From: Pseudomonadales bacterium
GTDB lineage: Bacteria > Pseudomonadota > Gammaproteobacteria > Pseudomonadales > Azotimanducaceae
Assembly: GCA_023300545.1 (NCBI GenBank)
Contig: JALZVT010000002.1
Coordinates: forward strand, 1 to 64,000
Direction of reading: 5' to 3'
DNA length: 64,000 nt
Every line of letters begins with the position of its first letter. Positions within the stretch are counted from its first letter, which is position 1. Of the stretch, positions 35,111 through 38,049 are shown one piece after another. The notes beneath the pieces are model-generated. The model did no database searches, was not told where the DNA came from, and was given only the letters and a program-made list of their open reading frames with translations. The position numbers and the translations under genes were made by a program.

Positions 35111-35178
35111 ACTCGGGTTCCTTTTCTTTTTATTGAGATATGATGGTGACGAGAGACATCATCGATGCAGGGAACACT

Positions 35179-36354
35179 ATGACCGATTTTCGTACCGAAG
35201 TACGCGCCTGGCTCGAAGCCAACTGCCCACCCAGCATGCGCACACCCATGCCGGCCGATGAGCATCCGGGTGGCGGCAAAAATGCGATTTGGAAAAACCC
35301 CGAGAGCAAACTGTGGCTAGACCGCATGGCAGAGCGGGGTTACACGGTTCCAACTTGGCCCAAAGAATATGGCGGCGCAGGTCTAGACGCTGCGCACAAC
35401 CGCATATTGCAACAAGAGTTGCGCAACATTAACGCAAGGCCAGCCCACCTCGGCATGGGCATTAGTATGATTGGCCCTGCACTGCTTGAGTTTGGTACTG
35501 CAGAACAAAAAGCTGAGCACCTGCCAAAAATTGCGCGCGGCGATATCTGGTGGTGTCAGGGCTACAGCGAACCCAACGCCGGTTCAGACCTTGCAAGCCT
35601 GCGCACCAGCGCCGTTTCGGATGGCGATGAGTACATCATCAATGGTCAAAAAGTCTGGACCTCGGGGGCAGATCACGCTGATTGGATTTTCTGCCTGGTA
35701 CGAACCGATCCCGACGCACCAAAGCACGACGGCATCACCTTCATTCTTTTCAACATGACCGACCCCGGTGTCACCGTGAAGCCGATTCTGCTTATCAGCG
35801 GGCTCTCCCCTTTCTGCGAAACCTTTTTCGACAACGTGCGCGCACAAAAGAAAAATGTGATTGGCGAAGTAAACAAAGGTTGGACCGTTGCCAAGCGGCT
35901 ACTGCAGTACGAGCGCACATCGATTGGCAGCATTGGCCGCAGCAGTCAAAAGTCGGCGTCGATCGAAGAATTAGCCAAACAGTATGTTGGCGTTGTTGAC
36001 GGCAAGCTGGCCGACACCTCAGTGCGCAACGACATTCTTGCTCACCGTATGAACGATGCGTCTTACGCGCTCACCATGCGCAGAAACGCAGAACAGATGA
36101 AGGCCGGCATAGCGCCCGGCGCCATTTCATCCATGTTCAAGTACTACGGCACCGAGCAAAACAAGAAACGCTTTGAACTGCTGCTCGACATGATGGGTAC
36201 TCAGGGCGTCGGCTGGACCGGCGAGTCATTTGCCGGCGACGAAATAGACACCACCCGCGGTTGGCTACGATCAAAAGCAAACTCGATCGAAGGTGGCACG
36301 TCTGAAGTGCAATTGAATATTCTGGCCAAGCGAGTGCTCGAACTGCCCGAGTAA
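35179..36354 (+). CDS. Acyl-CoA dehydrogenase
   Basis: A 391-aa FAD acyl-CoA dehydrogenase starting MTDFRTEVRAWLEANCPP (AGGGA upstream of ATG 35179). YSEPNAGSDLASLRTSAV binds FAD/substrate, YIINGQKVWTSGADHADW is the mid-domain signature, and SIEGGTSEVQLNILAKRVLELP is the FAD-binding C-terminal motif. It introduces an alpha,beta double bond into an acyl-CoA, substrate unknown. It opens the operon containing the UGSC selenoprotein, with a 37-bp gap before it. Confidence 0.92.
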   Translation: MTDFRTEVRAWLEANCPPSMRTPMPADEHPGGGKNAIWKNPESKLWLDRMAERGYTVPTWPKEYGGAGLDAAHNRILQQELRNINARPAHLGMGISMIGPALLEFGTAEQKAEHLPKIARGDIWWCQGYSEPNAGSDLASLRTSAVSDGDEYIINGQKVWTSGADHADWIFCLVRTDPDAPKHDGITFILFNMTDPGVTVKPILLISGLSPFCETFFDNVRAQKKNVIGEVNKGWTVAKRLLQYERTSIGSIGRSSQKSASIEELAKQYVGVVDGKLADTSVRNDILAHRMNDASYALTMRRNAEQMKAGIAPGAISSMFKYYGTEQNKKRFELLLDMMGTQGVGWTGESFAGDEIDTTRGWLRSKANSIEGGTSEVQLNILAKRVLELPE

Positions 36355-36391
36355 GCGCCCCCCTACATAACCGAACCAACCGGAGAATCTG

Positions 36392-36940
36392 ATGCTTGAG
36401 TTTCATGACCCAAGAGCCGCAAAAGGCGGCGAGCCCGATGCGTACACACTAGGCATCGATCTGAGCCGACAAAATACGGCTCGAATCGTCTGCCTGGCCA
36501 ACGGCTTTCCAGATTCGGATCGATTCCTGCAAAAAATCGAAGAGGTACTGCTTGAGCAACTGCCGACGGCCGACGTTTTGCAGTTGAACAAAAACAACGC
36601 TTCCAGCATTGCCTCCGACGCGATGCTCGATGAAATGGACGGCTTTCAAGCCGCCATTGCTGCCTACGGGCACTGAGGCAGCTGCACAACCGGCACCGTG
36701 CGTGACGGCATCAACATCGCAAAACGCGGCATTCCAGCCGTTGCTTTAGTCACCGAAGACTTCTGGCCCCAAGGTGACTTTGTGGCCGAGAGTTTTGGCA
36801 TGCCTGACGTCCCGAGGGTTCGCATTCCACACCCTATTGCTGGCAGTGGCGATGCCAATATGCGGCGAGTGGCTGAACAGGTAGTTCCTGCCATCATCGA
36901 CGCACTCAAACAGGCGCACGTGCCGCCCCAGAATCTATGA
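36392..36940 (+). CDS. UGSC-family selenoprotein with in-frame UGA (Sec95)
   Basis: Two ORFs, 36392-36676 and 36698-36940, share one frame and are joined by a single TGA at 36674-36676 followed by GGC AGC TGC. Reading it as selenocysteine gives U95-G-S-C, the motif of the UGSC (seleno)protein family, whose other members have Cys there (CGSC). The 182-aa product runs MLEFHDPRAAKGGEPD...AAYGH-U-GSC-TTGTVRDGINIAKRGIP...IPHPIAGS. GGAG precedes the ATG. The family is a predicted thiol or seleno-redox enzyme. The gene is second in a five-gene operon and overlaps the next gene by ATGA. Confidence 0.88.
36677..36712 (+). promoter_or_regulatory. Candidate bacterial SECIS region after the UGA codon
   Basis: Bacterial SECIS hairpins lie just 3' of the UGA with an apical loop 16-37 nt away. 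Here CCGT (36696-36699) pairs with ACGG (36705-36708) around a GCGTG loop starting 24 nt downstream of the UGA; an alternative pairs GCAC (36684-36687) with GTGC (36698-36701). Both stems are short, and I cannot fold the RNA here, so this is only a candidate. Confidence 0.4.
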
Positions 36941-38049
36941 ACGCTAAGAGCGCTATGAACGATATTGCCGTAACCCATCTATCCGCAACAGACGAGAGTG
37001 CGGCGTTGGAACAGCTGCATGAACTTGGCTGCACCGATGGTCTGCCCGTTATCATTCCAACACCTGAACGCGTGGCCCGCATGGTTCTCGCTTCGGGCTA
37101 CGACGCTGAGCTCGCGCTGGGCAGCATGGGTCCGGGCGGTGGTGTTGCCAGCATAGAAAAGGTGGCAATCGCGGCCGTGATGGCCGGCTGCAAAACCGAC
37201 TACATGCCCATTGTGCTTGCCGCCGTACGTGCAGTGATTGATCCACAGTTCGACCTAACGGAAATGCAAGCCACCACCCACTGCACCGCGCCGTTGATTA
37301 TTGTTAATGGTCCGGCTCGGCACAGCTGTGGCCCCATCGCCTGCAGCTTTGGTGCACTCGGACCGGGCTTTCGACCCAACGCAAGCATCGGCCGAGCACT
37401 GCGCCTCGCCATGATAAATATCGGCGGCGCAAAACCCGGCGTCTCAGACATGGCCTTGCTCGGACACCCCGGCAAGTTCACTTACTGCCTGGGCGAAGAC
37501 GAAGAAAACAGTCCGCTGCCACCCCTGCACAGTGCTCGTGGCTTTAGCCCCGAAGACAGTACGGTTACCGTCATTGGCGCAGAAGCCCCGCACTCGGTGA
37601 TGTTCAGCGGCGACGCTGACAACCCCGAATCACCCAACGCCCTACTCGACGTGCTAGCCATTGGCCTTGCTAACCTCGCCACCAACAACGCCATACTCCG
37701 TGGCGGCAATGCGGTGGTGGTGCTTAACCCCGATCACGCCAACGTGCTGGCCGGTGCTGGACTTGATCGCGCAGCGATCCAACAGGCGCTGTTCGAGCGC
37801 GCCGCACATCCGGTCGAAGATATGATGCGGGTAGCACCAGGCCTCGCTAGTCGCTCTAAAGACGGCGAACAAGCTCCCAAACGAGCCTTTCGTCAGGCTG
37901 ACGATATCCTCGTATTGATGGCCGGCGGCTCTGGTCTGTACTCGATGGTCATGCCCAGCTGGTGCGCCGGCCCCAACAAAAACTCCGCCGTTACCGTGGC
38001 CATCGAAATCGATCAGTTTTGCGAAGTACCCGGCATGAGCAGTAACTGA
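36937..38049 (+). CDS. Conserved protein of unknown function encoded next to the UGSC selenoprotein
   Basis: A 370-aa protein I do not assign to a named family. It is rich in conserved-looking Gly, Pro and Cys motifs: GCTDGLPVIIPTPERVARM, GGGVASIEKVAIAAVMAGCKTDYMPIVLAAVRAV, ATTHCTAPLIIVNGPARHSCGPIACSFG, and FTYCLGEDEENSPLPPLH. There is no signal peptide or membrane segment. The Cys-containing motifs and the 4-bp ATGA overlap with the selenoprotein gene suggest the two act together, perhaps as partner subunits or successive enzymes. This inference comes from context only. Confidence 0.75.
   Translation: MNAKSAMNDIAVTHLSATDESAALEQLHELGCTDGLPVIIPTPERVARMVLASGYDAELALGSMGPGGGVASIEKVAIAAVMAGCKTDYMPIVLAAVRAVIDPQFDLTEMQATTHCTAPLIIVNGPARHSCGPIACSFGALGPGFRPNASIGRALRLAMINIGGAKPGVSDMALLGHPGKFTYCLGEDEENSPLPPLHSARGFSPEDSTVTVIGAEAPHSVMFSGDADNPESPNALLDVLAIGLANLATNNAILRGGNAVVVLNPDHANVLAGAGLDRAAIQQALFERAAHPVEDMMRVAPGLASRSKDGEQAPKRAFRQADDILVLMAGGSGLYSMVMPSWCAGPNKNSAVTVAIEIDQFCEVPGMSSN

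Follow-up and report, generated by a model that had tools for sequence, protein, structure and literature searches.

The window, the whole stretch of 64,000 nucleotides analysed here, carries a gene for a member of the UGSC protein family, situated between an acyl-CoA dehydrogenase gene and the gene for a partner protein (Table 1). The UGSC reading frame of 182 residues is interrupted solely by a TGA at codon 95, directly followed by codons for Gly-Ser-Cys, and ends with a terminal TGA of its own. An earlier note on this DNA had read two consecutive ORFs as one frame split by a single TGA and had expected automated callers to report two fragments or a pseudogene; the translation agrees, and mechanical ORF calling delivered pieces of 94 and 80 aa. 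The family assignment made in that note is equally borne out, as the joined protein matches the Pfam model PF24696 (UGSC) with 138.8 bits at a curated cut-off of 25 bits over residues 6-173, that is on both sides of the TGA, and conservation spans the UGA in 30 aligned sequences, in line with the claim that the protein continues across it.

Table 1. Features at the UGSC locus, positions as in the window.
Feature	Position	Strand	Basis
Acyl-CoA dehydrogenase, 37 nt upstream of UGSC, possible operon member	35140..36354	+	context
GGAG ahead of the UGSC ATG, candidate ribosome binding site	36382..36385	+	by eye
Gene for the UGSC selenoprotein; 182 codons with UGA95 decoded as Sec, coordinates include the stop	36392..36940	+	translation, family match, relatives
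In-frame UGA, Sec95	36674..36676	+	TGA in 23/26, TGC in 3/26 relatives
Cys98, the C of the UxxC motif	36683..36685	+	no variation among 30 aligned sequences
Predicted SECIS hairpin of 19 nt, +14 to +32 after UGA	36690..36708	+	sequence identity, fold, codon freeze
Constant partner (370 aa), ATG overlapping the UGSC stop (ATGA)	36937..38049	+	synteny, co-occurrence, fusions

The window protein adds a new member to an already known family, with which it shares the match over the whole domain, the U/C-G-S-C motif and the existence of Sec and Cys forms. In contrast to the family as modelled by NCBIfam NF041046 (UGSC_fam equivalog), its subtype, recognizable by the motif AYGHUGSC, falls below the cut-off of 125 bits, and its partner is a separate gene. 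As not only the window protein (110 bits), but also all ten relatives scanned (L009, L010, L012, L017, L019, L022, L028, L030, L031 and L032; 97.2-118.4 bits) stay under this value, annotation based on NF041046 would leave the AYGHUGSC subtype unnamed. An in-frame UGA combined with low NCBI scores illustrates how automatic annotation can miss or split such genes, and this in one of the commonest selenoprotein families of ocean surveys, with 255 Sec forms in the table of the GOS paper (PMC2398784).

One scan of genome contigs retrieved 26 UGSC relatives, of which 23 carry TGA and three (L032-L034, with L033 stemming from Sphingobium subterraneum) TGC at the position of Sec95, so that the Cys of Cys homologues aligns with residue 95, as had been anticipated. 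Within the matched stretch the TGA is the sole stop in all TGA relatives except L013, which has two stops (22 of 23). When Sec is counted as Cys, only columns 95, 98, 124 and 136 are invariant among the 30 aligned sequences. The Cys form L032 is probably derived from a Sec form, because a tree of 37 UGSC sequences places it next to L031 and L054, both Sec forms, with a support of 0.987. L031 (CAMATU010000045.1), which groups with L054, stems from a record titled as a 'Klebsiella pneumoniae' metagenome-assembled genome, a title that may be a misassignment.

The genome of the window (G000; 4.78 Mb, 99.1% complete, 3.2% contamination) also possesses the sel genes on which the earlier note had made its reading depend. 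Contig C22 carries, next to one another and all over their cut-offs, a tRNA-Sec with the anticodon UCA (70.3 bits), selB (388.9 bits) and selA (519.4 bits), complemented by selD on contig C176 (248 bits, over cut-off). In a survey of 369 genomes of the class, SelB exceeds the cut-off in 17 and UGSC is present in six, five of them with a TGA form, and in four of these five (G000, G091, G314 and G332) both SelB and SelA are over cut-off. The fifth, G135, is 97% complete and encodes a TGA-form UGSC at C55:599-1075 (L056), yet neither SelA nor SelB is over cut-off, for which missing pieces, contamination or unusual decoding are candidate explanations. The sixth, G337 (75% complete), encodes a Cys form, and here the SelB match of 229.9 bits lies just below the cut-off and SelA gave no match. 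With respect to gene order, a UGSC gene fused to the partner is located between selB and selA in G332 (C2:142688-147974, L074), and in G314 (C69:107908-118258) UGSC is found approximately 6.5 kb from selA-selB.

Downstream of the UGA, nucleotides +14 to +32 read CCGGCACCGTGCGTGACGG in 24 of the 25 Sec forms compared (the window, L009-L031 and L054), a set that contains near-duplicates such as L021, L022 and L025. The exception, L030, differs by a single change at position 25, within the loop of the predicted hairpin, and nucleotides 12, 13 and 33, which flank the frozen block, are variable. The same stretch deviates at 5, 7 and 5 of 19 positions in the three Cys forms, and the 19-mer is unique within the window at up to three mismatches. 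In the fold of minimum energy (−4.9 kcal/mol) it forms a hairpin whose loop measures 5 nt. Folding energy as such is not significant compared to shuffles (199 of 200 fold at least as well) or to synonymous recodings (mean z +0.19 over 21 sequences, no better than controls), which is why codon conservation was used instead. Among 21 of these sequences and 43 degenerate columns between −30 and +53 with one amino acid in at least 90%, each of the five codon columns from +6 to +10 is restricted to one codon, versus none of the other 38. Covariation was assessed in eight hairpins from genes of the fused type. Both bases have changed in one pair and a single base in another, which was given no weight, since only three rows are distinct and 166 of 500 shuffles are as good. 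Rfam reported nothing above the gathering threshold over the window. The conserved codon usage and the predicted fold suggest that the frozen block is likely a SECIS element. That the joined gene encodes a selenoprotein is near certain, because TGA and TGC alternate at one column, the product matches the UGSC family, the genome holds the Sec machinery and the hairpin block is frozen.

What goes beyond the earlier note, besides the SECIS block, are the partner gene, a paralogue in the same genome and a similarity to selenoprotein B. All 26 relatives, also those with Cys, have a homologue of the partner gene immediately downstream of UGSC, cut by the locus end in L020 and L031. Its start codon overlaps the UGSC stop in 12 of 27 rows, with an invalid row for L013. 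UGSC and partner occur in the same six of the 369 genomes, and form a single chain, with UGSC first, in all nine genes of G332 and in the one gene of G135. Downstream position, co-occurrence and fusions elsewhere make it very probable that both proteins constitute an obligate unit. The window partner has no match in Pfam or NCBIfam, and partner sequences of 19 relatives gave only scattered single weak matches to Pfam. Fusion of a UGSC protein to a conserved unnamed domain, UGSC/Unknown_1, has been described in the GOS paper (PMC2398784), and Unknown_1 is likely the present partner, even though in the window the partner is a separate gene.

The structure model of the UGSC protein (pLDDT 90.9, pTM 0.85) consists of alternating strands and helices, with Sec95 positioned between the strand 87-93 and the helix 96-111. 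The best Foldseek match is the azoreductase 4n65_A (E 4.8e-4, TM 0.47); with VIA, the designed protein 8ju8 (Z 10.7, rmsd 4.3, 130 aligned) and 8s7v_H (Z 10.0, rmsd 4.2, 137 aligned) are followed by many CheY-like and other Rossmann-like chains with Z of about 9. As modelled, UGSC would be a Rossmann-like domain, in contrast to the Trx-like fold proposed in the GOS paper (PMC2398784). No thioredoxin is named among the 50 structure matches listed for UGSC, an absence that does not amount to exclusion.

On the sequence level, some of 22 diverse UGSC members matched models of the reductase family around selenoprotein B in NCBIfam at E<=1, namely gly_red_sel_B (8 members), sarcosine GrdF (8), various_sel_PB (4), betaine GrdH (3) and PrdB (3), with a best E of 2.6e-6 for gly_red_sel_B. 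Scanned singly, six of ten members matched gly_red_sel_B within model residues 323-419 and four were without match; the window protein itself reached only E 0.13 with the GrdF model, and the best UGSC member scored 26.6 bits against a cut-off of 602.2 bits of the GrdB family model TIGR01917. The alignment of 22 UGSC proteins with three Sec-bearing GRDB-like proteins by hhalign places Sec on Sec (E 2e-4, probability 46.7%), a result that depends on the alignment, as the probability ranges from 1% (A3, narrower) over 11.9% (A1) to 46.7% (A5, wider). PF07355 (GRDB) had no match at E<=10 among 30 UGSC members, and PDB sequence searches with UGSC, the partner and the GRDB-like set gave no convincing match, two unrelated chains appearing at E 0.002-0.003.

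Common to UGSC and the selenoprotein B components of the glycine, sarcosine, betaine and D-proline reductases (GrdB, GrdF, GrdH and PrdB), whose Sec region is weakly matched, are the Sec with a Cys three residues on and a similar GIP stretch, and the motif UxxCxxC is shared by two of 22 UGSC members (L035 and L058). On the other hand, UGSC is much shorter, does not match PF07355 and has a different partner without Pfam match, and the window protein (UGSCTTG) lacks the third Cys. UGSC is likely, but not proven, to be remotely homologous to the Sec-bearing part of selenoprotein B, a relation that is based on the NCBIfam matches, their confinement to model residues 323-419, the hhalign superposition of Sec on Sec and the members with UxxCxxC. 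A link of UGSC with GrdB was not found in the literature passages on UGSC consulted here, and we do not claim it as unpublished.

By analogy with glycine reductase, where GrdB binds the substrate and contains UxxCxxC and thioredoxin supplies the reducing power (PMC13188914), UGSC and its partner would most likely be a two-subunit Sec-dependent reductase fed by thioredoxin. SelB and the UCA tRNA-Sec would, with good confidence, read UGA95 as selenocysteine directed by the downstream hairpin, and, equally firmly, UGSC and the 370-aa partner would act jointly as a unit, with tandem translation in the window and a single chain in some other genomes. UGSC may then be a small protein of Rossmann-like fold that is related to the C-terminal, Sec-bearing part of selenoprotein B. 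The UGSC selenolate may attack an electrophilic bond of a partner-held substrate, with Cys98 resolving the product as a Se-S bond that a thioredoxin or thioredoxin-like protein may reduce. The substrate could conceivably be a small organic compound, perhaps tied to acyl-CoA metabolism, for which the acyl-CoA dehydrogenase upstream is only a hint. These steps up to the reduction of the Se-S bond, taken together, have a little less than an even chance of being right, as has, considered separately, GrdB-like reductive chemistry of UGSC. We assign a probability of roughly 0.4 to the full reading, in which the pair is a two-subunit relative of the glycine and proline reductases, the partner is a new family of substrate-binding subunits, the Sec enzyme reductively cleaves a bond of an organic substrate and the system has expanded to nine TGA copies, all fused, in G332.

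The connection to thioredoxin is suggested by redoxin-like domains and a neighbouring gene. In the G000 paralogue (L050) the partner gene precedes UGSC, in reverse of the window's order, and the partner has a CPTC redoxin-like domain at its N-terminus (Pfam AhpC-TSA 24.9 bits at a cut-off of 26); the L017 partner has the same domain with 27 bits, over cut-off, the CPTC motif is present in L081 without a Pfam match, and a flavin disulphide-reductase-like gene adjoins a fused UGSC gene in G332. Counted against the reading were the folding energies, the E value of 0.13, the 110 bits with NF041046, the missing PF07355 match, the low hhalign probabilities, the redoxin score of L050 below cut-off, the missing Pfam match of the L081 redoxin-like domain, and G135.

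Alternatively, the UGSC selenoprotein could be a general thiol oxidoreductase or peroxidase acting on protein disulphides or peroxides, with the partner as client or helper. UxxC is a common redox motif and a Trx-like fold, as put forward by the GOS paper (PMC2398784), would fit such a role, but the structure model points to a Rossmann-like domain, its matches being flavodoxin- and CheY-like; in addition, the NCBIfam matches of the relatives at E<=1 are GrdB and not thioredoxin models, and the partner recurs as constantly as UGSC does. This alternative is considered rather unlikely.

A role of the partner as the actual enzyme, for example a lyase or hydrolase that UGSC merely activates or protects, is still more improbable. 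Asp, Arg, Asn, Glu and His, but no Cys, are invariant among 19 partner sequences, and fumarate hydratases and cyclic amide hydrolases come up as the best, though weak, structure matches of the partner. The matches are poor, as the partner model (pLDDT 83.8), which shows no clear fold, has no Foldseek match at E<=0.001 and no VIA match with a Z of 8 or more, and it is Sec and Cys98 that are invariant features of UGSC. A class I fumarate hydratase or cyclic amide hydrolase fold of the partner was considered on the basis of these best matches and is not believed. A pseudogene, a sequencing error or a genetic code with TGA as an ordinary residue throughout would account for the stop interrupting the frame and the split by ORF calling, but is very improbable in view of the recurrence of this TGA in 23 of 26 relatives, the gene's own terminal TGA, the frozen hairpin block and the Sec machinery in the genome.

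In a 2026 review UGSC is listed among the selenoproteins with largely uncharacterised functions (PMC13188914), and the GrdB-like similarity gives the family a testable functional lead. With the constant partner and the similarity to selenoprotein B at hand, the pair can be purified and assayed for thioredoxin-dependent reduction of small organic compounds. Partner, SECIS block and GrdB similarity are the parts of use to the specialist.

Among 39 UGSC loci, genes for CoA-transferase III (13), fumarase (8) and luciferase-like proteins (5) are found nearby, which, recurring largely among related genomes, perhaps reflects plain synteny. The same may hold for a thioredoxin-reductase-like cluster near UGSC in 7 of the 39 loci, except for the two of them in G332.

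The second TGA-bearing UGSC gene of the window's genome (C11:20498-22746, L050), which lies behind the partner gene fused to the redoxin-like domain, encodes ADUGSCTTC and with it UxxCxxC. The same genome encodes two GRDB-like (PF07355) proteins (C32:14839-15228 and C26:34942-35301; L071 and L072) in which PIC and PVC, respectively, come after an in-frame TGA. Since these two frames run through an in-frame TGA, at least four selenoproteins are probably made by this organism. The nine TGA-bearing UGSC genes of G332 (L055, L059-L066) are all fused to the partner, and six of them start, as judged by eye, with a signal-peptide-like stretch, so that some UGSC proteins of G332 may be exported selenoproteins.
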